Shown: in pieces, positions 4,162-35,478 of the stretch | Layout of the letters: each line of letters opens with the position of its first letter | Position numbering within the stretch: position 1 is the first letter of the stretch | Source of the DNA: a virus | Length of the DNA: 37,089 nt | Virus record (IMG/VR): IMGVR_UViG_3300044638_003266 | Coordinates: 1-37,089 of that record | Direction: 5' to 3' (one strand) | The notes under the pieces: generated by a model | Told to the model about the DNA's origin: nothing | What the model saw: only the letters and a program-made list of their open reading frames with translations | Database searches by the model: none | Translations under genes and position numbers: made by a program

Positions 4162-4170
4162 TTGACATAA
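4162..4170 (+). promoter_or_regulatory. TTGACATAA leader motif, copy 1
   Basis: An exact TTGACATAA ends 12 bases before the gpW-like start, followed by a weak GGGGA ribosome site. Five other exact copies and two TTGACA variants sit in similar places. It resembles a sigma-70 -35 box but lies too near the start codon to drive this gene in the usual way. Confidence 0.5.
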
Positions 4171-7407: not shown

Positions 7408-8529
7408 ATGCCCCTACCCACTCCCAGAGGAGACGAATCGGAACAGGACTTTGTTTCCCGCTTTATGGGCAACGACCAAGCCATCAGCGATTTTCCCGAT
7501 GAAACACAGAGGGCGGCGGTTGCCTATCGCACTTATAGGGATGAGGATGAAGAAATGGCAGAGCTAGAATTGGGTGGGGTCTCGATCCTTGAGGTAGGCG
7601 AGGCCAAAGGGCATGACTTATTTGTAGACAAGAAAAGCCTAGAATCTGCCCTTGAAATTATGAAGTCCGCAAAGAACGGCGTGAAGGTGAAGATGAACCA
7701 CGGAAGCGGATTGGATGCTGTGGTAGGCTTTGCCCGCAACCCCCGCATCGAAGGCGATAAGCTAGTGGCCGACCTTCGCCTCCTCCGCAACTCCCCGCAC
7801 TACGGCCTCATCAAAGAGATGGCCGCAGAAGCTCCCGACCAGTTCGGCGTTTCCTTGGCTTTCGTGAACGAGTCCGAGACCATCAACGGCAAGGACTATA
7901 TCCGACCCCAATCCATCGCTTCCGCCGACCTAGTAAGTAGCCCTGCGGCAACCAATGGGCTTTTCGAGGAAATGGTTAAGTTCATGCAGAAATTTGCCGA
8001 AACCCAGACCAAATGCTCTGGAGAAACAATCAAAATGGGATATATGGTTGGCGGCAAGCCGATTCCCACCGATCTGCCCGAAGCGGAAGTTGAGGGCGAG
8101 GGTTTGACAAAAGGAGAAAACACAATGGAAAACAAAGATTACGGTAAGGAAGTGGAAGATATCAAGGTGCGCCTCGCCAAACTGGAAGAGGCCATGTCTC
8201 CCAAAGAAGAGGAAAAAGAGGATTCGGTTCCCAAGATTGAAGTCGAGGTTAAGCCGAAAGAGGAAATGGCGAAAAAGGAAGAGCCCAAGACCGAGGAGAT
8301 GTCCGAGGTTGTGAAAAAGGTTCTCACCGAGTTCGGCATCAAGCCTGTCCCCGCTTCCCCGGTGATCGAGGAGGCTCCCGCAAAGAAAGAGGAGCCGAAG
8401 AACTTCGAAGCCCTTGTATCGGCTCACCCCGAATACAAGACTTCAAAGCTGAACGCCATGAAAGCGGTCATGCTCTCCAACCCCAACGAATACCGTGAGG
8501 CTCTGTCTCGTGGTATTAAGAACATCTAA
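7408..8529 (+). CDS. Prohead protease with C-terminal scaffold region
   Basis: A 373-residue protein. The ATG at 7408 is chosen because it follows the portal stop and the TTGACATAA motif; a longer frame from 7342 would overlap the portal gene. The N-terminal 215 residues look like a serine prohead protease: His98 in VKMNHGSG, Ser149 in QFGVSLAF, then SADLVSSPAATNGLF near the domain end, where many phage proteases have a similar motif. From about 240 the chain is Lys/Glu-rich with predicted coiled coil, as in a scaffold, and ends in a basic helix that could bind the capsid protein. A nested start at 8125 may release the scaffold separately. It should cut itself and other proteins during head maturation. 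Confidence 0.75.
   Translation: MPLPTPRGDESEQDFVSRFMGNDQAISDFPDETQRAAVAYRTYRDEDEEMAELELGGVSILEVGEAKGHDLFVDKKSLESALEIMKSAKNGVKVKMNHGSGLDAVVGFARNPRIEGDKLVADLRLLRNSPHYGLIKEMAAEAPDQFGVSLAFVNESETINGKDYIRPQSIASADLVSSPAATNGLFEEMVKFMQKFAETQTKCSGETIKMGYMVGGKPIPTDLPEAEVEGEGLTKGENTMENKDYGKEVEDIKVRLAKLEEAMSPKEEEKEDSVPKIEVEVKPKEEMAKKEEPKTEEMSEVVKKVLTEFGIKPVPASPVIEEAPAKKEEPKNFEALVSAHPEYKTSKLNAMKAVMLSNPNEYREALSRGIKNI
8104..8109 (+). promoter_or_regulatory. TTGACA leader variant with strong ribosome site inside the protease gene
   Basis: TTGACA is followed by AAAGGAG and, 8 bases later, an in-frame ATG at 8125. The layout closely copies the leader of the tail tube candidate at 18765, which is hard to explain as mere coding sequence. 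Confidence 0.5.
8125..8529 (+). CDS. Nested scaffold protein (internal start within the protease gene)
   Basis: An in-frame ATG at codon 240 of the protease gene would give a 134-residue protein: a coiled-coil segment (VEDIKVRLAKLEEAMS), Lys/Glu/Pro-rich repeats and a C-terminal helix ending REALSRGIKNI. AAAGGAG at ideal spacing precedes it. Lambda makes scaffold Nu3 in the same manner from inside protease gene C, so the arrangement has a known model. Two distinct products are inferred from sequence only. Confidence 0.6.
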   Translation: MENKDYGKEVEDIKVRLAKLEEAMSPKEEEKEDSVPKIEVEVKPKEEMAKKEEPKTEEMSEVVKKVLTEFGIKPVPASPVIEEAPAKKEEPKNFEALVSAHPEYKTSKLNAMKAVMLSNPNEYREALSRGIKNI

Positions 8530-8943: not shown

Positions 8944-9912
8944 ATGAGTTATATCGCTGGCGGCACGACCATTCGTGCGGACATCAACCAAGCTCTCATC
9001 GAGGCTCCTCAAGCCGATGTGGGATTGATCGGCGCAACCCTTCTCCCCTTGCAGAATGTACAAGCCAAGGCCGGAACCTATCTCAAGGTTCAGCTTGCGG
9101 CGGCTGACCTTCTCTCCAACAACTCGGCCATCCGTTCGGCAGGTTCCGAGTATCAGAGGGGCATTCGTTCCTTCACCTCGGCCAACTACCAGACCGAGGA
9201 GTTTGGCTTGGAAGAGTTGCTGGACGATTCCAGTGTTGAGGATTTGAACCGCTTCTTTGCGGTGGAATCCGAAACCGCCAAGTTCCTCCTCCGCCAGATC
9301 AAGCTCGGTCACGAAAAGCGTGTTGCCGACCTGCTCTGGGCGGCAAGCACCCCCTTCGCCACGGCTGACCAGACTCGCGCCGTTGCCTATACGAACACAA
9401 ACATCGCCACGGTTGATGTTGCTCGTGACGTTGCGGCGGCCAAGCTCGCTCTCAACAAGTTGGGCTATGAGCCGAATTGCATTGCGATGTCGGCCAATGT
9501 GTTTGAGTTGATTCGCCGTTCCACCCTCCTACAGAATCAGTTCTTCGGTGTTATCTCCAACACCGGGGCTCGCCTTCTGAGTGAGGCTGAAATCGCGGCG
9601 GCTCTGGGCGTGCAGACGCTCGCAGTCGGTCGTGCGGCCTACAACACCGCCAACAAGGGCAAGAGCTACTCGGGCTCCTTCATCGTCCCCGACAGCAAGA
9701 TCGTTGTCGGACAGATCGCTGGCGGCGAGTTCACCGCTGGCGGAATCGGGCGCACCTTGGTTTGGGCGGCTGATGCGGCTGGGTTCGTCAGCGAATCCTA
9801 CCGTGACGAGGCTCGCCGTTCCAATGTCCTCCGTGTTCGCATGAACACCGATGAGGTTGTGATCGACAGCAATGCGGCGGTTCGTATCACCACCGACTAC
9901 TCGGCAAGCTAA
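8944..9912 (+). CDS. Major capsid protein
   Basis: A 322-residue protein after protease, scaffold and decoration genes. The pattern is that of a phage coat protein: an N-terminal region with QNVQAKAGTYLKVQ, then a segment SANYQTEEFGLEELLDD, an E-loop and spine-helix-like stretch FFAVESETAKFLLRQIKLG, and a C-terminal region GRTLVWAADAAGFVSESY with basic residues. It lacks an obvious long delta domain, in keeping with a separate scaffold. GC content is higher and codon choice more uniform (GCG, GAC, CTC) than in the neighbouring cargo genes, as expected for the most expressed gene. A strong terminator follows. Confidence 0.85.
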   Translation: MSYIAGGTTIRADINQALIEAPQADVGLIGATLLPLQNVQAKAGTYLKVQLAAADLLSNNSAIRSAGSEYQRGIRSFTSANYQTEEFGLEELLDDSSVEDLNRFFAVESETAKFLLRQIKLGHEKRVADLLWAASTPFATADQTRAVAYTNTNIATVDVARDVAAAKLALNKLGYEPNCIAMSANVFELIRRSTLLQNQFFGVISNTGARLLSEAEIAAALGVQTLAVGRAAYNTANKGKSYSGSFIVPDSKIVVGQIAGGEFTAGGIGRTLVWAADAAGFVSESYRDEARRSNVLRVRMNTDEVVIDSNAAVRITTDYSAS

Positions 9913-9935: not shown

Positions 9936-9974
9936 GAGGGGCTAGAGCCTAAAAACTCTAGCCCCTCTTTCTTT
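9936..9974 (+). terminator. Strong intrinsic terminator after the capsid gene
   Basis: A perfect 12-bp stem (GAGGGGCTAGAG / CTCTAGCCCCTC) with loop CCTAAAAA is followed by TTTCTTT. It lies 23 bases after the capsid stop and would separate the head genes from the cargo genes. The T-run ends right at the next start codon. Confidence 0.9.
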
Positions 9975-10106
9975 ATGGTTAAGATCATAATTTTGTGCCT
10001 TGCTCTTTCTGGATGCTCCGAACCTATTTACAGAGAGAACGAGCTTCCTAGTTATTCGGATATGTCTGCGGCCAAAGATGCCCAAGAAGTATTGACAAAA
10101 CCCTAG
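9975..10106 (+). CDS. Small lipoprotein, possible superinfection-exclusion factor
   Basis: A 43-residue protein with a short signal peptide and lipobox: MVKIIILCLALSGC, Cys14 being the lipidation site. The mature part is about 30 residues and acidic. Longer starts upstream would put the terminator hairpin inside the gene and hide the signal peptide, so the ATG at 9975 is preferred. Tiny lipoproteins between late genes are known in phages that block their own receptor (for example Llp of T5), and o-spanins are similar in size. Which applies here is not visible. Its last codons contain a TTGACA leader for the next gene. Confidence 0.55.
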   Translation: MVKIIILCLALSGCSEPIYRENELPSYSDMSAAKDAQEVLTKP

Positions 10107-10130
10107 AAGAAATCCTTAATCTGAAATCCT
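10092..10130 (+). promoter_or_regulatory. Composite leader: TTGACA plus two GAAATCCT repeats
   Basis: TTGACAAAA at 10092 is followed by GAAATCCT at 10109 and again at 10123, just before the ATG at 10133. The same order (TTGACA, then GAAATCCT, then ATG) occurs at 34392-34426. Confidence 0.45.
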
Positions 10131-10132
10131 CC

Positions 10133-11788
10133 ATGCGAAATCCTGTTAGCCTATATTTAATCGCCGGAAATGAAGAGGCGTATATTGAAAGATGTATTCG
10201 TAGCTTTGCCCCACTTGCCGCTGAAACAGTTGTCTGTATCGCAAGAGGATCGCAAGCCCCAGACAAAACAGAGGAGATCGCCAAAAGCCTTGGGGCTAAA
10301 GTCGTTTATTACCAGAATCAAAAAACTAGCTGGCCTCATATAGACGACTTTGCAAGCGCAAGGAATATGGCCTTAAACGCCTGTTCCTGCGATTGGTCTT
10401 TCTGGGTGGATGCCGATGATGAGATGGCGAAGGATGCCCCACAGATTGTGGACGATGCCATAGACCAAGCCAACCAAAAGAGTGCAGACCTAATTGCGTT
10501 TCGTTATTGGGTGGAGAACGCCTCTTTGAACCCCCTTCGGGAGATGGCCTTGCGAAAAGGCAGGGGCAAATGGAAAAATAGGGTTCACGAAATGCTTGTT
10601 GCAGACGACCAAAACAAGTTGATTGGGATTGATAGGATCGTTAGGGTTCACAAGCCGCACGGATACAAGGCAACCAGCGCAGAGAGAAATTTTAGAATCA
10701 TTGAGGATGTGATCGAACCAGCCCCCAACGCCCTTTACTATAAAGCCCAAGAGCAGTTTTTGTCCGGCAAGGCCGCAGAATGCTATGAAACAAGCAAAAA
10801 GGCTCTGATGTTTGAAAGCCTAGAGGATACCCTTCGATACGATGTCCTGTGCAATCTTGGCAGAATTTCCCCAGAAAAGGAAAGGCTTAAATGGCTCGGG
10901 GAGGCAATTACCCTTATGCCAGACCGCAGGGAAGCCTACTTTTGGGCGGGGCAAGAATACGCGGGGAAAGGCAAATGGATCAAGTGTTATGGGGCGATGA
11001 GGTCTTGCATGACCCTCCCAAGGCCAAAGGTTCATTATTGGAATTTGAACGAAGCCATCTATCAATGGCAATCACTAGACCTATACGAAACAGCAAGTGT
11101 TTCAGTTGGGGAAATTGGCGAGGCCGAAAAGATGAAGAAGGCAAGGCCAGCCCCCAAGATTTCAATCATCCACGCCACAAAGGGAAGGCCGCAAATCGCC
11201 TGGCAAAGACGCTGGCAATGGCTCTCCTTAGCCGAAAAGCCCCTTGAGGTTGAATGGCTTTTTGTTGTCGATCACGATGACCCCCAAGATTACACCCCAC
11301 ATCAAGCCATCCGATGCAACCCCGGCGGAATCGTGAATGCTTGGAACCACGGCGCAAAACAGGCCAAAGGGGATATCTTGGTTCAAATGTCGGATGACTG
11401 GAGCCCGCCGAGGCATTGGGATGCCCTAATTTCGACCGCTATTGGGGCTACAAATGAGGAGAAGGTCTTGGCAATATCTGATGGCCTACGAACCGACAAA
11501 CTCCTTTGTATGGCGATTATGACGCAAAAGAGGCTAGAAAAACAAGGGGGTTATATGTTCCACCCCGAATACCAAGAGAGCGATGGCATCTATTCAGACA
11601 ATGAATTTACAGAAAGAGCTTATGGTGATGGAGTTGTAGTTGAGGCCAAACATATTCAATTCAAACATGAAAATCCTTTATTTACAGGCGGGAAGCCGGA
11701 TGATCTAATCAAACATCACAACAAGCCAGAATTTTACGAGAAGGGCAAAGTTATTTATGAGAAAAGAAAAGCCGCAAATTGGAATTAG
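10133..11788 (+). CDS. Two-domain glycosyltransferase (GT2-like N- and C-terminal domains)
   Basis: A 551-residue protein. The N-terminal GT-A domain starts SLYLIAGNEEAYIERCI, typical of family 2 transferases, and has an acidic metal-binding motif in WVDADDEM near residue 92. The centre (about 200-340) is helical and TPR-like, as in SunS-like phage transferases. A second GT-A-like domain begins near 345 (ISIIHATKGRP), with VVDHDDP near 380 and QMSDDWSPP near 417. It would move a sugar from an activated donor to an acceptor, perhaps twice. It leads the sugar cassette placed right behind the capsid gene. Acceptor (virion protein, DNA or host surface) is unknown. Confidence 0.8.
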   Translation: MRNPVSLYLIAGNEEAYIERCIRSFAPLAAETVVCIARGSQAPDKTEEIAKSLGAKVVYYQNQKTSWPHIDDFASARNMALNACSCDWSFWVDADDEMAKDAPQIVDDAIDQANQKSADLIAFRYWVENASLNPLREMALRKGRGKWKNRVHEMLVADDQNKLIGIDRIVRVHKPHGYKATSAERNFRIIEDVIEPAPNALYYKAQEQFLSGKAAECYETSKKALMFESLEDTLRYDVLCNLGRISPEKERLKWLGEAITLMPDRREAYFWAGQEYAGKGKWIKCYGAMRSCMTLPRPKVHYWNLNEAIYQWQSLDLYETASVSVGEIGEAEKMKKARPAPKISIIHATKGRPQIAWQRRWQWLSLAEKPLEVEWLFVVDHDDPQDYTPHQAIRCNPGGIVNAWNHGAKQAKGDILVQMSDDWSPPRHWDALISTAIGATNEEKVLAISDGLRTDKLLCMAIMTQKRLEKQGGYMFHPEYQESDGIYSDNEFTERAYGDGVVVEAKHIQFKHENPLFTGGKPDDLIKHHNKPEFYEKGKVIYEKRKAANWN

Positions 11789-11825
11789 GCCAGCCAAAAA
11801 AGGCGAGGATACCAAGGGGCTTGGT

Positions 11826-12026
11826 ATGATTAAATTTGGCAAATCGCGCCCAGACAAAACAAAATATATTCTTTTAGATTTCGAGTATGACGAAAAAGCG
11901 GGGAAAGAGCTTTACAGGATTGGGATGGAATTGCTTGCCAAGGATAAGGAAGCCGTCATCAACTATGTGATTGTGAAGGCCGTGAAATACACAGCAGAAC
12001 TTGGTAAAGCAAAATGCAAGAAATAA
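11826..12026 (+). CDS. Small hypothetical protein of the glycan cassette
   Basis: A 66-residue protein from the ATG at 11826, which has AAGGGG five bases upstream. An upstream ATG at 11757 would add 23 residues and overlap the transferase gene by 32 bases. The chain is basic at its N-terminus, then has the strand YILLDFEYD and a helix with many Lys and Ala. The family was not recognised. It overlaps the next methyltransferase gene by 13 bases, so it is probably co-translated with it. Confidence 0.5.
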   Translation: MIKFGKSRPDKTKYILLDFEYDEKAGKELYRIGMELLAKDKEAVINYVIVKAVKYTAELGKAKCKK

Positions 12027-12613
12027 GGATTGATGATCCATTTGGCTCAGCCCTTGCCAAATATAGCACCGGGCTTGAGTGCGGGATTGAGATTGGGGGA
12101 GGAACAGGGGATGGCTCAACCCAATGTATCAAAACCAAGGAGCTATTTAGTTTCGAGATTCACCCAGACCGCATAGGCCGACATGGGATGAATGTTTCCA
12201 TGAGGCAAGGAGGAACCGCGTTTCATCATCTTTCAAGCAATCCGGACAAATGGATGCGAGAGGAACAGATTAAGGAATTTTACCAATCCACAAAAACCAA
12301 CCTCAACGCCTATCCTATTGAGCAAATTTTAGGATGGCTAAAAGATGACTTGCTAAGTGCCTCAAAATATAAATGGGGAACGACCCACTTGGCATACAAT
12401 CCCGATTTTATTCTTTTAGATGGCGGAGCTTTTTCTGGAGAGGCAGACATGGCCGAGTGGTTTCCAAGGCTTAAGGATGGAGGAATTATTGCCCTAGACG
12501 ATGTGAACGATATTAAGAATCTGGCAAACTATAATTGGCTGAATTCTTGCGGGTATTCTTGCCTATATCAAAATATGGAATGGCGGAATGGGTCAGCCAT
12601 CTTTAGAAAATGA
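12014..12613 (+). CDS. Class I SAM-dependent methyltransferase-like protein
   Basis: A 199-residue protein. A Gly-rich loop IEIGGGTGDGST at residues 26-37 looks like motif I of a class I methyltransferase. FSFEIHPDR follows where an acidic residue contacts the SAM ribose, and FILLDGG plus GGIIALDDVND fill later strand positions. It resembles enzymes acting on small sugars or glycans rather than DNA, as no DPPY or PCQ motif is present. Its stop overlaps the next gene by ATGA. Substrate is inferred from the sugar-cassette context. Confidence 0.6.
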   Translation: MQEIRIDDPFGSALAKYSTGLECGIEIGGGTGDGSTQCIKTKELFSFEIHPDRIGRHGMNVSMRQGGTAFHHLSSNPDKWMREEQIKEFYQSTKTNLNAYPIEQILGWLKDDLLSASKYKWGTTHLAYNPDFILLDGGAFSGEADMAEWFPRLKDGGIIALDDVNDIKNLANYNWLNSCGYSCLYQNMEWRNGSAIFRK

Positions 12614-13191
12614 TTGTCTTAAATGTCGGGGCAAATGACGGGGCGGACGATTGCCACGATTTTGTGATGGCAAATAGGCAATCAATATCGGAAGTTCACT
12701 TAATAGACCCAAGCCATGAGGCAATCGAAAAATGCAAGGAAACATATAGGGATATTCAGCAAGCAAAATTTCACGAGTCCGCCATCATTCCAGACGACTC
12801 AAACGCCGCAATTCTTTATAGCCCCAAGAACCAGCCAGACAGCCATCATTCCTCGCTCATCCCGAACCATACCCTTTACCACGGCCACAAAACCATTGAA
12901 GGCGTAGCGGTAAAGGCCATCAGCCTTCCAAGATTCTTTGAGCAAAATAAAATCACGAAATGCGACAGGCTTTATATCGACACAGAAGGGATGGATTGCC
13001 ATATCCTCCTCGCCTTGGATTTGGCTAAATATAAAATCGACTTTATTCAATTTGAGGTGTTGCACTCGGACGGGCTTCAAACCAAGGGGCAGAATTACGC
13101 CATGATTACCAAAAGGCTTCTTGGCCTTGGATATTCGATTAGAAAGAGCGGAGAATGGAACGAAATAGCGGAGAAAATATGGAACACATAA
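12610..13191 (+). CDS. FkbM-family methyltransferase
   Basis: A 193-residue protein with the FkbM pattern: N-terminal VLNVGANDGADD (motif I), VHLIDPSHEA (motif II region), and RLYIDTEGMDCHILLALD near residues 118-135, where the D-x-E-G-x-D signature lies. FkbM enzymes O-methylate sugars and related natural products. It overlaps the previous gene by four bases and the next by 13, so expression is coupled. In this cassette it most likely caps a phage-made glycan. Confidence 0.8.
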   Translation: MIVLNVGANDGADDCHDFVMANRQSISEVHLIDPSHEAIEKCKETYRDIQQAKFHESAIIPDDSNAAILYSPKNQPDSHHSSLIPNHTLYHGHKTIEGVAVKAISLPRFFEQNKITKCDRLYIDTEGMDCHILLALDLAKYKIDFIQFEVLHSDGLQTKGQNYAMITKRLLGLGYSIRKSGEWNEIAEKIWNT

Positions 13192-13715
13192 ATTCAGACT
13201 TTGAAGAACAATGGTTCACATATCCGAGGCTTTATCGGATGCTTGTTGAGAATTGCCGACCTGATGGGACTATCGTTGAGCTTGGGGCTTGGAAGGGAAG
13301 GAGTTCGGCGTTCCTTGTGGTTGAGGCTAAAAACAAAAGCCACAATATCAAGATTCACATTGTCGATACTTGGCTTGGGTCGGGCGAGCATACCGCCGGA
13401 ATGACTGATGGGCTTTATGAGAAATTCATTTCAAATATGGCTCCGCTAAATGGGCACTACCAATCCCACAGAATGACAACCGATGAGGCGGCTCCGCTTT
13501 TTGGGGACGGTTCGCTAGATGCGGTTTTCATAGATGCAGACCATACTTATGATGCCGTAAAAAAAGATATTGCAAATTGGATGCCAAAAGTTCGCAAAGG
13601 CGGAATCTTGGCTGGCCATGATTATATCCATACTTGGCCGGGGGTCATCCAAGCGGTTAATGAATCTATCTCCGGCTTTTCAACGATGGAACAATGCTGG
13701 TTCAAACAATGCTAA
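13179..13715 (+). CDS. Class I methyltransferase (Methyltransf_24-like)
   Basis: A 178-residue protein from the ATG at 13179, which has GGAG six bases upstream; a start at 13155 would add 8 residues. Motif I is VELGAWKGRSSAFL, followed by IHIVDTW; LDAVFIDADHTYDAVKKDI and KGGILAGHDY fit the Methyltransf_24 family, whose members include sugar and antibiotic O-methyltransferases. It is the third methyltransferase-like gene in a row. Its end overlaps the next gene slightly. Confidence 0.75.
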   Translation: MEHINSDFEEQWFTYPRLYRMLVENCRPDGTIVELGAWKGRSSAFLVVEAKNKSHNIKIHIVDTWLGSGEHTAGMTDGLYEKFISNMAPLNGHYQSHRMTTDEAAPLFGDGSLDAVFIDADHTYDAVKKDIANWMPKVRKGGILAGHDYIHTWPGVIQAVNESISGFSTMEQCWFKQC

Positions 13716-14476
13716 CCATTTTTACAATCGTTCTTAATGGCGAGCCTTATATTTCTAAAAAGCTAGAGGCATACCAAAAGCTCGCAATCCCTTGGCAGTG
13801 GCGAATTGTCGAGGGGGTAAGCCAGCCGACCAACTGCACAAGATGGTGTAAGCAAGTCCCAGACAAATGGCACAAGGAATTTCGATCCATAGACGGAACG
13901 CATGAATATCTAAAAAATCTAAAACACGATAAGGTAAAAATCTATTCCCAGAATAAGCCCTTTAACGGAAAGATTGAAATGGTGAACAAAGCTCTTGAGG
14001 GAGTGGATTGCGGGGTTGTGATGGAACAGGATGCCGATGAATTTTGGACTCCAGAGCAGATGACCGCAGTTTATGATTTGCTAAAAGATCGCACCCCCGG
14101 AGTGACTGCACAATTTCATTGCAACTACCATATTGGGAAAAAGGTTGTGGTTAGCCGAAGCGGGCTAGGCTCTTATCCTTATGAGTGGTATAGGGCATGG
14201 AAGTGGGGCGAGGGGATTCACTTTACCAGCCACGAACCGCCCATCTTGAATCATCAGCCCATTAGAATCCCAAGAGGAATTACAGAGGAGATGGGGCTTA
14301 TATTTGAGCATTACGCCTACTGCACGCAACAAACCGTGGCCTTCAAGCAGGATTTCTATGGATATACTGGCCTTTTGAAATCTTGGGAGGAGCTACAACA
14401 AACCCACGGCCCTGTTCGGCTCAATAGATATTTTGCCCATGTTCAAGACCGAAGTGTGGTGGACGATGCAACTTAA
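13709..14476 (+). CDS. Glycosyltransferase-like protein (GT-A fold)
   Basis: A 255-residue protein. It opens MLTIFTIVLNGEPYI, the first strand of a GT2-like domain, and has the acidic motif MEQDADEFW near residue 108, matching a DxD metal site. The ATG at 13709 overlaps the previous stop by 7 bases; an ATG at 13694 is also possible. The C-terminal half is rich in aromatic residues and His. It would add a sugar from a nucleotide donor; specificity cannot be read. Confidence 0.65.
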   Translation: MLTIFTIVLNGEPYISKKLEAYQKLAIPWQWRIVEGVSQPTNCTRWCKQVPDKWHKEFRSIDGTHEYLKNLKHDKVKIYSQNKPFNGKIEMVNKALEGVDCGVVMEQDADEFWTPEQMTAVYDLLKDRTPGVTAQFHCNYHIGKKVVVSRSGLGSYPYEWYRAWKWGEGIHFTSHEPPILNHQPIRIPRGITEEMGLIFEHYAYCTQQTVAFKQDFYGYTGLLKSWEELQQTHGPVRLNRYFAHVQDRSVVDDAT

Positions 14477-15149
14477 AGTCATCAAGTATCAACAAAGGCT
14501 GGGGGATGTTCTCCGATGCCTCCCCGCCTGTAAATATCTAGCCGACCAAGGGCATGAGGTTTTATTCGATTGCTTCGAACAATATTATGGCGTGTTTGAT
14601 TTGGTGTCCTATGCGAAGCCAATGGGCGCAATCCCATTCAATGCAGATATTATTGATCTTGAGGTATGGCCTAATAAATATATTGATTACAGAAAGAGCA
14701 GAAAGACTTGGACTGATTTTGTTTATTCAGACCCAAGGATCAAAGACGCAGACAAAACAAACATTATTCTGGACAGGCTTGGGCAAGAAAGAGCGGATGT
14801 ATTGCCGGAGCAATATCACCTTATAGCCCCATTTGGAATCTCCCAAGGCTATCCAAGAAGCCCCATTCAAATAATCCAAGAGGCGGCCAAGGAGCTTGGG
14901 AAGGAGAAAATTATTGTTCTATGCCCCCCGGAATTTCAAATCCAAGGCTTAAGGACATATACCGCGCCTAGCGTTGAGCAGATGGCAAAGGCGATTAGGG
15001 ATGCAGAGGAATTTTGGGCGATCAACTCCGCCCCTGTTTGTCTTGCTTCGGCGGTCAGAAGGGGCAAGCAAACAAGATTTTGGGGGGTCAAAAACGAATG
15101 GGAGACTGACAACATATTTGAATTTGAGGGGCTTGTAAGAGTGGATTGA
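14466..15149 (+). CDS. Heptosyltransferase-like (GT9/GT-B) protein
   Basis: A 227-residue protein. The N-terminus LKVIKYQQRLGDVLRCLPAC resembles the RLGD acceptor loop of ADP-heptose:LPS transferases, and the C-terminal part (WAINSAPVCLASAVRRGKQT) resembles the donor-binding end of GT-B enzymes. It is shorter than full-length GT9 enzymes (about 320-350), so a trimmed phage version is likely. The start at 14466 overlaps the previous gene by 11 bases. Its stop is part of a TTGACATAA motif that leads the tail genes. Confidence 0.55.
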   Translation: MQLKVIKYQQRLGDVLRCLPACKYLADQGHEVLFDCFEQYYGVFDLVSYAKPMGAIPFNADIIDLEVWPNKYIDYRKSRKTWTDFVYSDPRIKDADKTNIILDRLGQERADVLPEQYHLIAPFGISQGYPRSPIQIIQEAAKELGKEKIIVLCPPEFQIQGLRTYTAPSVEQMAKAIRDAEEFWAINSAPVCLASAVRRGKQTRFWGVKNEWETDNIFEFEGLVRVD

Positions 15150-15165: not shown

Positions 15166-15483
15166 GTGGGCGGGGCTATTTCCACTTCTTATTTCGGCAA
15201 CGACTTGTCCTATGTCATAAACGATCTTTGGACAAGCGTAACAGGGCTTGCCACAAACGCCATATCCGCCTCTGTCACAGACTTGGCGACTTCCTCTGAA
15301 CTGGATGTGGGCGGGGAGGTTTTTAGGATCACCCAAAGCCTAGTGGTTTGCGCCGGGGTAATTTCAGCCCCATCAATCGGGGGCTTGGTCACTTTGGCTG
15401 GTAATGAAAGAATGATTGCGGGCTTTAGCCTGTCCCCAGATGGCATCTCCTACACAATTGAACTTGCCGATATAACCACCTAA
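15166..15483 (+). CDS. Neck or head-tail joining protein candidate
   Basis: A 105-residue beta-rich protein from a GTG start preceded by AAGGGG. The helix at residues 10-45 (LSYVINDLWTSVTGLATNAI) is followed by regular strands (EVFRITQSLVV, RMIAGFSLSPDGISYTIEL), fitting small stopper proteins such as gpFII. Position, before two tail-completion-like genes, supports this. No clear family signature was recognised. Confidence 0.4.
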   Translation: MGGAISTSYFGNDLSYVINDLWTSVTGLATNAISASVTDLATSSELDVGGEVFRITQSLVVCAGVISAPSIGGLVTLAGNERMIAGFSLSPDGISYTIELADITT

Positions 15484-15487
15484 TTCT

Positions 15488-15904
15488 ATGGCCTCAATAG
15501 AAAGGGAGGTGGAAAGGGGGCTTTTGAATGCCGTGTCCGGCATAACTGGCGTTAATGCCTACACAAGTGAGCGAGGATCGCCAAGGACGCTTCCAAGCCT
15601 AGTTGCCCAAGCCCAGATAAGTTCGGAGCTTCTAGGGCCATTTACAGGCGTTTTTAGCGTTCCGGCAACGCTTACCTACACGGCAAGGGCAGATGGCAAC
15701 ACGAAGCAACTATTTGATCAAAAATTTCAGAGCATAGTTGCCGAGCTTTACAGAGACCCAGACCTAGCCTCATACATGACCAATGTGACCAGTTGCACTA
15801 TCTATGTCGCAAAAGTCACAAGCGAAAGTCCGCAAGTTATAGCAAGGAATCGGACTTGGGCTAAAACAATAACCCTAGACATAAACGCCACGCCCAAGAA
15901 ATGA
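15488..15904 (+). CDS. Tail-completion-like protein, paralogue A
   Basis: A 138-residue protein: N-terminal helix, SSELLGPFTGVFSVPATLTYTA-type strands, a helix around FDQKFQSIVAELYRDPDL, and a C-terminal strand pair ending TLDINATPKK. It shares its whole plan with the next gene (ELLGPFTGV versus QLLGNYTGV; RTWAKTITLDINATP versus RAWQRGLTLNIFATP). In neck clusters such proteins terminate the tail tube and join it to the head (gpU-like). The exact role is inferred from position and size. Confidence 0.45.
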   Translation: MASIEREVERGLLNAVSGITGVNAYTSERGSPRTLPSLVAQAQISSELLGPFTGVFSVPATLTYTARADGNTKQLFDQKFQSIVAELYRDPDLASYMTNVTSCTIYVAKVTSESPQVIARNRTWAKTITLDINATPKK

Positions 15905-16392
15905 ACCAATCCACCCCATTTGAAGTTGAGGATGCCTTGGCAAGGCTTATCGAGGATTATTCCGGCCTTAATGTCTATACCACAAATAGGACAGGCAAGA
16001 GGCTTTTCCCCTATGCCACCATATCTGCATCCATCAATACCCAGCTTCTAGGCAACTATACAGGGGTATATGACTTGAATGTGACAGTCAATTATAGCGA
16101 TACCTCGGCCAAGATTACCCAAGAGGATTTTGATTCTGAATATTGCCAAATCTTTGAATCTTTATACGAGGAAACACCAACCCTAGTCGCAAAGATTCAA
16201 AACAGAATCATCAATACAAAGATGTATATGGCTAGGATTGTGAGCCAAGCCCCAACCATAAGAACAGACAAGAGGGCTTGGCAAAGAGGATTGACTCTCA
16301 ATATCTTTGCAACCCCACAAGAGGACGAAGATGGCCTGAGAAACTATGACTTTAGCGACCAGCTTAATAGTTTCTACATTGCCACAATTTAA
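15901..16392 (+). CDS. Tail-completion-like protein, paralogue B
   Basis: A 163-residue paralogue of the preceding gene with an extra acidic C-terminal tail of about 25 residues. Shared parts include GLNVYT near the start, LLGNYTGVYDLNVTVNY, and the closing RAWQRGLTLNIFATP. The two genes overlap by ATGA. Tandem duplication and divergence, perhaps as tail terminator and completion protein, is the simplest reading. Neither has a catalytic motif. Confidence 0.45.
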   Translation: MNQSTPFEVEDALARLIEDYSGLNVYTTNRTGKRLFPYATISASINTQLLGNYTGVYDLNVTVNYSDTSAKITQEDFDSEYCQIFESLYEETPTLVAKIQNRIINTKMYMARIVSQAPTIRTDKRAWQRGLTLNIFATPQEDEDGLRNYDFSDQLNSFYIATI

Positions 16393-18788: not shown

Positions 18789-19133
18789 ATGCCAGCAACT
18801 ACCATTGGTCAAAGCGGGTTAGTGTTCGGATTGACCACCGAAACGATTGGACTTGTTCAGAGCTTCAGCGAAACTCGTAATGTTGAAAAAAATGAAGTTC
18901 GCGATAACAGCGGCGATATTAAGGCCGTTGCCTACTATAACCCAACCACCTCCTATTCCTTGAGCGTGGCGATCACCGGGGCGAATACATCCATCACGGT
19001 TGGAGGAGCCTTTGCGATGGCAAATGCTACCACCGCCGGAACGCTCCGCGTTGATTCCCTGACCATCAATAAGTCTAACGATGCGTTTGTGACTTTGGAT
19101 GTGTCGGCCACTGGCTATCCGAATGTAAGTTAA
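18789..19133 (+). CDS. Major tail tube protein candidate
   Basis: A 114-residue beta-rich protein with the best ribosome site of the tail region. The segment VQSFSETRNVEKNEVRDNSG and AVAYYNPTTSYSLSVAITG are like the tail tube fold, where strands form the inner barrel. Position before chaperone and tape measure genes fits. It is shorter than most tube proteins (130-250). A weak hairpin follows, as after the capsid gene, suggesting a strongly expressed unit. Confidence 0.6.
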   Translation: MPATTIGQSGLVFGLTTETIGLVQSFSETRNVEKNEVRDNSGDIKAVAYYNPTTSYSLSVAITGANTSITVGGAFAMANATTAGTLRVDSLTINKSNDAFVTLDVSATGYPNVS

Positions 19134-19170: not shown

Positions 19171-19548
19171 ATGGAGGGCCAATCATTCTGGGGAACAACC
19201 AACATAAAAGTTGCTTCTGCTGTGGCGGCCTTTGGCGGTAAGCTAAGGCAATCCGACCCGGTTACTCATATTATTAGGGAGGACGGAACTAGGCAAGTGA
19301 CTTTCTGGTTCGAGGGCGGTGATGGGGACAAGGTTAGGTCAGAGATGGAGGCAAAATGGGCTGATATGAAGAGCAACCCAGAAGCCCCCGTTCGTTATGT
19401 GAAAGCGGCTTTGGAAAATAGGGAAACGCTTCTAGGATTGGTTAAAAGGGCCGAGCCAATCCAAGTGCTACAAAGGGGCGGGCAAACCCTCCTAGTCCCT
19501 TTAAACGCCAAACCAGAGCTAAAAAAGGCCATTCTAAAGGCAATCTAA
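19171..19548 (+). CDS. Hypothetical tail protein
   Basis: A 125-residue protein between the tail tube candidate and the chaperone genes. An N-terminal helix precedes strands RQVTFWFEGGDGDKV, a central helix, and a C-terminal LLVPLNAKPELKKAILKAI. I do not recognise a family. It follows a GAAATCCTA leader and ends one base before the chaperone start, so it is probably part of the same translation unit. Confidence 0.55.
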   Translation: MEGQSFWGTTNIKVASAVAAFGGKLRQSDPVTHIIREDGTRQVTFWFEGGDGDKVRSEMEAKWADMKSNPEAPVRYVKAALENRETLLGLVKRAEPIQVLQRGGQTLLVPLNAKPELKKAILKAI

Positions 19549-19549
19549 C

Positions 19550-19924
19550 ATGAGCAATGAAATCCTAGAGGAATTGAACGCATCCTTCGTGGCAGGGGAA
19601 AGAACATTTAAGGGGAAGCCCCTTGCCCCATACACAGAAGGGAGCAAGCTTTTACTTCTTCAAGTAAGGGATGATGGTGATTCCTCCCTTTATTTTGTGT
19701 ATAGCTTTGTGTTTGTCCATATTCTGATTAAGGAAAACAGGCGGGAAGCCATCAGTCTTTGTTGGGATAAGGACAGATTTAGGGAAAGGCTCTTTGATTG
19801 GATTGCTGGGTTCAATCAGAGTGACCTTGGGGAAGCATCCAAGATTGTTTCTGAAATCATAGAAGAGGCCGGTAAGGGGTCGGTTGAGGTTCTTGGGGAT
19901 GGGAAAAGCCGGGGAAACGGGTAA
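19550..19924 (+). CDS. Tail assembly chaperone, short form (gpG-like)
   Basis: A 124-residue protein: a short beta start with PLAPYTEGSKLLLLQVRD, helices through SFVFVHILIKENRREAISL and FRERLFDWIAGFNQ, and a Gly/Lys-rich tail. It stands just upstream of the tape measure region, where G-type chaperones lie. The last sense codons before its TAA sit on a GGGAAAC slippery heptamer, the hallmark of the G/GT pair. The chaperone coats the tape measure while the tube forms. Confidence 0.75.
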   Translation: MSNEILEELNASFVAGERTFKGKPLAPYTEGSKLLLLQVRDDGDSSLYFVYSFVFVHILIKENRREAISLCWDKDRFRERLFDWIAGFNQSDLGEASKIVSEIIEEAGKGSVEVLGDGKSRGNG

Positions 19925-34426: not shown

Positions 34427-34732
34427 ATGGAGATCGCCCCCATCGAGTCCGACCAGTTGAGAGCCGAAAGGCTTTTGATTGAGCTATGCCCGGACAACTC
34501 CGAGCTTAAAAAGATCACGAAGGCCGGACGCTCACAGGAACGGATCAAGATGCTACGCCAAGTAATCGAAAGGTTACTGCTGAACGCCATCCCAACGGCG
34601 GTAATAGCCAAGACCCTAAAGATGGAACAACCCGTGATTCAATACCATGCCCGATGGCTGGAAAAACACGGTAGGGTAATTAGGCCAAGCAAGCATAGCC
34701 ATTGGATTTGGGCAAAGGAGGGCTGTGAATGA
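34427..34732 (+). CDS. HTH DNA-binding protein
   Basis: A 101-residue protein. The C-terminal half is a helix-turn-helix (IPTAVIAKTLKMEQPVIQYH, WLEKHGRVIR) with a basic and aromatic tail. The N-terminal half is helical and acidic, perhaps for pairing. It heads the methyltransferase unit and overlaps it by eight bases, so it may control it. Confidence 0.6.
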   Translation: MEIAPIESDQLRAERLLIELCPDNSELKKITKAGRSQERIKMLRQVIERLLLNAIPTAVIAKTLKMEQPVIQYHARWLEKHGRVIRPSKHSHWIWAKEGCE

Positions 34733-35478
34733 GTTGGCTCTTTTCGCAGGCGCTGGTGGAGGATTGCTTGCGAGCAAACTACTTGGATGGAGAACGGTTT
34801 GCGCCGTTGAAATTGATGCCTATTGCGCCAATGTTCTTGTCGCAAGACAAAACGAAAAAATCTTGGAACCCTTCCCGATTTGGGACGATGTTTCAACCTT
34901 TAACGGAGAGCCTTGGAGTGGAATTATTGATGTGGTTTCTGGCGGGTTTCCGTGCCAAGACATATCAGCCGCCGGAGCCGTCCACGGATTTACAAAAGGA
35001 GTTGAGGGGGGGGGGGCGGAGCGGACTTTGGCGACAAATGGCAAGAATTATTGGCGAAGTTCGACCCAATTTCGTCTTCGTGGAAAACAGCCCAATGCTT
35101 GCTAGCCGAGGATTATCAAGGGTCTTGGGCGACCTTTCCCAAATGGGGTATGATGCAAAATGGGGAACTTTGGCGGCTTCAAAATATGGCGCACCCCACA
35201 AAAGAGAACGGATGTGGATTTTTGCCAACGCCAGTGGCAAGCGAATGGAGAGACAAGGCCAAGGCAAATATTCTGAAAAAATTAGACCGTGGGGGCAGAT
35301 TAGCGAGGAGGATTTGCACAATATGGAACCTTTCACAGCCCATAAAAGTTGCGGCGAATCCCCGCTTCTCAGAGTGGATGATGGGATGGCCTATTGGATG
35401 GACAGAATTAAAGCCATTGGGAATGGACAAGTTCCAATCGTGGCTAAAAACGCAATCGAGGAGCTATTAAAACTGTGA
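34725..35478 (+). CDS. C5 cytosine DNA methyltransferase, frame interrupted at an 11-G tract
   Basis: From the GTG at 34725: motif I LFAGAGGGLLAS, VEID (II), and GGFPCQDIS with the catalytic Cys (IV). At the G-run 35006-35016 the frame as written leads to a stop at 35105. The frame one base on continues the enzyme: RSGLWRQMARII, FVFVENSP (VI), GAPHKRERMW (VIII) and AIGNGQVP (X), to the stop at 35478. Ten or seven Gs would join both halves (KGVEGGGRSGLW). The target-recognition part is short. It would methylate cytosines in phage or host DNA. A read or assembly error in the run, or true phase variation, may explain the break. Confidence 0.8.
35006..35016 (+). repeat. 11-G homopolymer (possible phase-variable tract)
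   Basis: Eleven Gs in a row lie within the methyltransferase gene, just after the PCQ motif. Such tracts slip during replication, transcription or translation. All three downstream frames carry open sequence of different meaning. Confidence 0.85.
35006..35470 (+). CDS. Overprinted third-frame protein linked to phage cytosine methyltransferases
   Basis: A frame open from the stop at 35003 to 35470 reads ADFGDKWQELLAKFDPISSS, then WATFPKWGMMQNGELWRL, GCGFLPTPVASEWRDKAK and NPRFSEWMMGWPIGWTELKP. I recognise this pattern (FDP-x-SWKT, TFP-GM, LPTP, NP-WM-G-P-GWT) from proteins and C-terminal parts that go with phage cytosine methyltransferases. It lies wholly over the methyltransferase C-terminus in another frame and has only a TTG (35051) as an early start. 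Entry from the upstream frame would need twelve or nine Gs, or a -1 slip on the G-run. Confidence 0.45.
   Translation, partial: GGGGGADFGDKWQELLAKFDPISSSWKTAQCLLAEDYQGSWATFPKWGMMQNGELWRLQNMAHPTKENGCGFLPTPVASEWRDKAKANILKKLDRGGRLARRICTIWNLSQPIKVAANPRFSEWMMGWPIGWTELKPLGMDKFQSWLKTQSRSY

Follow-up and report, generated by a model that had tools for sequence, protein, structure and literature searches.

We propose, with a probability of about 0.6, that a run of glycosyltransferase (GT) and methyltransferase genes behind the major capsid protein (MCP) gene of an uncultivated tailed phage adds sugars to one of the phage's own virion proteins. The lead enzyme, GT1, would prime a glycan that the other enzymes extend and methylate, and the acceptor is likelier to be a neck or tail protein than the capsid, or may be both. 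The genes lie in the window, a 37-kb tailed-phage contig from a virus record (the whole stretch of DNA analysed). Its genes for both terminase subunits (small and large), the portal, a probable protease/scaffold of 395 aa and a 121-aa head protein are followed by the capsid gene, the cassette, small neck genes and the tail module.

Gene content of the cassette

The MCP gene (8944-9912; phrog_1005), which like the other genes of this region is encoded on the + strand, is separated from the cassette by a strong intrinsic terminator with a 12-bp stem (9936-9967, +). A hairpin is found at this site in 233 of 233 relative loci, scored locus by locus, with 47 distinct hairpin sequences. The cassette consists of seven same-strand ORFs (10133-15149, +), with overlaps of 4-37 nt between neighbours. 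The initial annotation had described a tightly packed set behind the capsid terminator, made up of a two-domain glycosyltransferase, a small protein, three methyltransferase-like genes including an FkbM gene and two further transferases, and the ORFs, family matches and overlaps bear this out. It had, however, begun the cassette at 9975, which is wrong, as the ATG at this position opens another ORF (9975-10106, +), lipoprotein-like and 43 aa long, that lies directly 3' of the terminator and outside the core cassette. This ORF, found in this clade only, carries a signal peptide and lipobox (MVKIIILCLALSGC; lipobox LSGC) and could encode a superinfection-exclusion lipoprotein.

GT1 (10133-11788, +) is the invariant element of the cassette. 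Its N-terminal part matches PF00535 (1.5e-14) and phrog_13126 (1.6e-29) and its C-terminal part phrog_14945 (3.6e-7); the protein comprises a GT-A domain of the GT2 family (~aa 1-195) with a WVDADD motif, a TPR-like middle (~aa 196-335) and a second GT-A-like domain (~aa 336-551). A GT2-family catalytic domain with a DxD motif followed by a TPR or helical part is also the arrangement of GmaR, the GlcNAc transferase of Listeria flagellin, and of the peptide S-glycosyltransferase SunS, both of which are cytosolic and act on a protein or peptide acceptor. A GT1 profile compared with PDB sequences matched GmaR (1.6e-11), SunS (1.7e-9) and TPR proteins through its N-terminal part and middle. The N-terminal domain of GmaR attaches GlcNAc to flagellin, the filament protein, which its TPR domain is proposed to bind or recognise (PMC9638930). 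Unlike GmaR, GT1 has a second GT domain in place of the antirepressor domain, and its score of 28.8 bits falls far short of the SunS equivalog cutoff (NCBIfam TIGR04195, 350 bits). Judged by sequence, GT1 resembles cytosolic protein glycosyltransferases such as these; among 50,697 phage records it had only distant partial matches.

The 89-aa product of the next gene (sm89; 11757-12026, +) is a conserved small protein with no assigned fold. MT1 (12014-12613, +) is a class I SAM methyltransferase-like protein with an invariant EIGGGTGDGS motif and a weak, sub-threshold match to PF13578 (19.4 vs 26.3 bits); a PDB sequence search with its profile returned nothing useful. The adjoining FkbM-family gene (12610-13191, +) passes the curated cutoffs of both Pfam (PF05050, 43 vs 22.7 bits, 7e-11) and NCBIfam (TIGR01444, 45 vs 37.7 bits), and MT3 (13155-13715, +) belongs to Methyltransf_24 (PF13578, 2.5e-20). 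GT2 (13694-14476, +) is a GT-A glycosyltransferase (PF00535, 4.7e-6) with an invariant D-x-D-E. GT3 (14466-15149, +; the ORF opens at 14433, but the ATG at 14466 is the likelier start) encodes a short and divergent protein (227 aa) without a Pfam or NCBIfam match or a useful PDB-sequence match by profile. Its predicted structure (pLDDT 88) has TibC as best Foldseek match (7.6e-7), followed by WaaC, WaaF and a GT9 enzyme (Z 13-15), so the model assigns it a short GT9-type GT-B fold, the GT9 heptosyltransferases themselves being about 320-390 aa long. TibC is a protein heptosyltransferase. An invariant Gly-Asp in the first loop of GT3 lies at what we take to be the position of the catalytic Asp of WaaC. 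The cassette therewith contains phage-encoded glycosyltransferases with conserved catalytic motifs, as do known virion glycosylation systems, and an adjoining methyltransferase gene with a predicted methylation role, as in mycobacteriophage cluster O.

Several other features of the window were recorded. A TTTGACATAAGGAG-like motif lies, at 4162, 7388, 8104, 10092, 15146, 18765, 26349 and 34392, about 20 nt before start codons, at times including the stop codon of the gene upstream, and is a possible phage-specific expression signal. Within the 395-aa ORF it is accompanied by a Shine-Dalgarno sequence and an in-frame ATG (8104-8529), which by analogy with lambda C/Nu3 probably mark a nested scaffold inside a protease-scaffold gene. 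A PAPS-reductase-like gene (1200-2090; phrog_424, 1.3e-44) is situated between the small and large terminase genes. The window contains no Rfam match and no tRNA.

A constant enzyme and an exchangeable slot

The relatives of this phage are freshwater-type phages from metagenomes only, many of them in IMG/VR; MCP and t114 profiles found no relative among 84,980 genomes, and MCP found nothing among 50,697 phage records. The initial annotation had pointed to gene order in relatives as a check, and the same block occupies the same position in about 100 relative contigs, because of which we do not attribute the cassette to chance. The usual order is MCP, terminator, GT1, then sm89, MT1, slot, GT2 and GT3, and finally t105, t138 and t163. 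At this locus GT1 is present in 185 of 185 loci with the window-type MCP, 95 of 95 with another MCP (loci with enough sequence) and 248 of 248 candidate tail-tube loci with sufficient upstream sequence, counts that are biased where loci were fetched by GT1 and unbiased where they were fetched by MCP or t114.

The remaining genes are less constant. Among the 103 contigs of lineage 1, to which the window's capsid type belongs, MT1 is a core gene (88 contigs) and GT3 is similarly widespread (91). Methylation by FkbM and MT3 is optional tailoring, since these genes occur in only 19/103 and 23/103 relatives, respectively. The slot between MT1 and GT2 holds, in different relatives, FkbM, MT3, other methyltransferases, further glycosyltransferases, a GT7-like gene, a sugar epimerase, a B12-binding radical SAM gene or a TPP-E1 pair, and its genes, in some relatives everything 3' of GT1, are exchanged between phages. 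In seven contigs (L011, L013, L023, L038, L054, L069 and L074) extra genes (c9, c10, c17, c19, c20) lie between MCP and GT1 and possibly encode variable head-surface or adhesin proteins.

The capsid protein of lineage 2 has no detectable similarity to the window MCP (blastp E 1.9) and matches phrog_283/267 instead of phrog_1005. Terminase (35%) and portal (27%) are distant in this lineage, yet GT1 (about 42%) and t114 (56%) are kept. Genes for a GT9-like enzyme, a radical SAM protein and two paired TPP-dependent E1-like proteins often fill its slot. One lineage 1 contig carries this lineage 2 set at 56-82% identity (L076:2821-5865; GT9-like, radical SAM, TPP E1 alpha/beta-like), an unusual chemistry for a phage glycan.

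Divergence of GT1 relative to capsid, neck and tail genes

Three small neck or head-tail genes, their roles assigned by position (t105, t138 and t163; 15166-16392, +), adjoin the cassette. Further downstream, t114 (18789-19133, +) encodes a candidate tail tube protein, based on its position and a low-confidence model (pLDDT 60) that in structure comes closest to tail tubes, those of phage R4C and of a gene transfer agent (GTA); it is followed by t125 and t124 (19171-19924, +), which co-vary with t114 and are by position likely tail assembly chaperones. Presence or absence fails to discriminate between capsid and tail, as all relatives carry GT1, MCP and t114, and divergence patterns were therefore compared instead.

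Across 46 dereplicated contigs, pairwise divergence of the GT1 N-domain correlated with that of MCP at r = 0.36, with t105, t138 and t163 at 0.78-0.85 (t138 and t163 at 0.80-0.85) and with t114 at 0.69; the partial correlation with t114 given MCP was 0.68. MT1, although located between GT1 and the tail genes, correlated with t114 at only 0.13. In a set of 77 contigs, GT1 N-domains more than 30% apart occurred in 37% of pairs with MCPs less than 8% apart, in 6% of pairs with near-equal t138 and in 0 of 199 pairs with t114 less than 10% apart. GT1 hence varies in closer step with the neck and tail genes downstream than with the MCP gene 200 bp away. Adjacency would suggest the capsid as the target, but by these comparisons it is a poor guide.

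A natural swap illustrates the coupling. Contig L007 and the window are alike in MCP (3% apart), the GT1 C-domain (5%) and t138 (8%), and unlike in the GT1 N-domain and TPR part (39%) and in t114, t125 and t124 (62, 59 and 66%), as well as in MT1 and the slot. The GT1 domain swap coincides with a tail swap, and is the sole swap event with tail data in which the two change together. In two contig pairs (L044/L045 and L064/L065) the neck genes are swapped with GT1 and t114 unchanged, and L011, which combines a window-like GT1 with a t114 of a different type, breaks the pattern. These data weaken the idea of t114 as the only gene that GT1 follows, as t138 correlates as well or better: cluster overlap (AMI) was 0.78 for GT1 and t138, 0.57 for GT1 and t114, and 0.50 for the GT1 N-domain and MCP, and the correlation between GT1 and t114, 0.93 in a small early set, dropped to 0.69 (GT1 N-domain) once the set had been enlarged and dereplicated. 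Much of the coupling between GT1 and the neck and tail genes could stem from their linkage in a recombining block.

Proposed mechanism, alternatives and significance

From gene content, conservation, exchangeability and co-variation we infer an acceptor, donor sugars, an order of steps and a benefit to the phage. In the cytosol, GT1 would recognise a structural protein through its GT-A domain and TPR repeats and add an initial sugar to it. The second GT domain of GT1, together with GT2 and the GT9-like GT3, would lengthen the glycan, and MT1, FkbM and MT3 would methylate it. Exchange of the slot would leave relatives with differing surface glycans. GT1 divergence follows the neck and tail genes over MCP, which shifts the likely acceptor from the capsid towards the tail, with t114 as leading candidate. 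As a tentative extension, which may hold but which we would not yet favour, the region could act as a virion 'serotype' locus, in which a constant protein-priming GT is matched to the tail (tube) protein and combined with a swapped tailoring slot across unrelated capsids, near-identical phages thereby differing in their tail glycans. The methylated virion glycan suggested in the initial annotation, which envisaged hiding of the particle or altered adsorption as its possible effect, stands in so far as a virion-aimed glycan set is the best supported reading and methylation is reasonable for this genome, with the qualification that FkbM and MT3 are optional in its relatives.

By comparison, a glycan on the capsid, or on a protein decorating it, is unlikely; the neck and tail coupling would then reflect linkage in a recombination block that starts at the terminator. 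Such an acceptor would fit the constant placement of GT1 right after MCP in both of the unrelated head types, the putative surface proteins encoded between the two genes in some relatives, the AMI with MCP and the established glycosylation of mycobacteriophage capsids (cited in PMC12619734 and PMC11600133), but it sits poorly with the low correlation with MCP and with the many MCP-alike pairs whose GT1 N-domains differ strongly. The alternative raised in the initial annotation, a change of the host surface, here taken as an alteration of LPS core, O-antigen or capsule that blocks superinfection or aids release, is less well supported, and we consider it distinctly improbable. GT3 shares its fold with LPS heptosyltransferases, a small lipoprotein-like ORF adjoins the cassette, the genes in the slot look like those of sugar-decoration sets, and soluble GTs could modify host glycans from the cytosolic side of the inner membrane in the manner of WaaC and WaaF (GT9). 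However, no cassette protein has a transmembrane segment (maximum KD19 1.16), and the cassette contains no flippase, polymerase or lipid-linked priming enzyme. O-antigen conversion (Gtr) cassettes differ in this respect, as here there is neither a flippase nor a membrane-bound GT and the proteins lack a hydrophobic segment. The genes are moreover placed inside the late structural module, from MCP to the neck genes, and GT1, which every relative carries, co-varies with genes of the virion.

Very improbable, finally, is glycosylation of hydroxymethylated bases in phage DNA. Phage sets of GT and tailoring enzymes that hypermodify DNA do exist (Pyle 2024, as cited in PMC12619734), and this genome has a C5-cytosine DNA methyltransferase-like gene (34729-35478; PF00145, partial match), but the larger ORFs scanned, on a contig that could lack its ends, include no TET/JBP, hydroxymethylase or thymidylate-synthase-like gene, the cassette sits in the structural module, and GT1 resembles protein glycosyltransferases. 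For host-surface targets the companion enzymes usually required are missing from the cassette, and for DNA targets from the larger ORFs scanned.

A virion target would be in line with mycobacteriophages, where phage-encoded GTs lie beside an O-methyltransferase gene and capsid and tail tube proteins are glycosylated (Freeman et al. 2023, cited in PMC11600133 and PMC12619734). That phage GTs encoded beside a methyltransferase can glycosylate virions is already known, and the phages described here share that gene arrangement. In contrast to the mycobacteriophage systems, the present set is placed between the capsid gene and the neck genes of uncultivated phages, and a fusion of GT2-family domain, TPR part and second GT is constant while the rest is exchangeable. 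As far as the searched literature and records show, two features are new: the combination of a constant GT1 with a slot of exchangeable genes, seen here in uncultivated phages of two unrelated head types, and the coupling of GT1 to neck and tail rather than capsid.

In two uncultivated phage groups the lead enzyme was present at every locus with enough sequence, and the tailoring genes differ between phages as those of a serotype locus do. This points to virion glycosylation as more than a mycobacteriophage curiosity. This yields a concrete enzyme-acceptor question, that of GT1 with t114, MCP or the neck proteins. A weaker antibody response has been reported for mycobacteriophages, an effect not obviously relevant to environmental phages. 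The question raised is what such phages gain from glycans where there are no antibodies; they might, for instance, evade grazers, lectins or sticky host debris, or have more stable particles.
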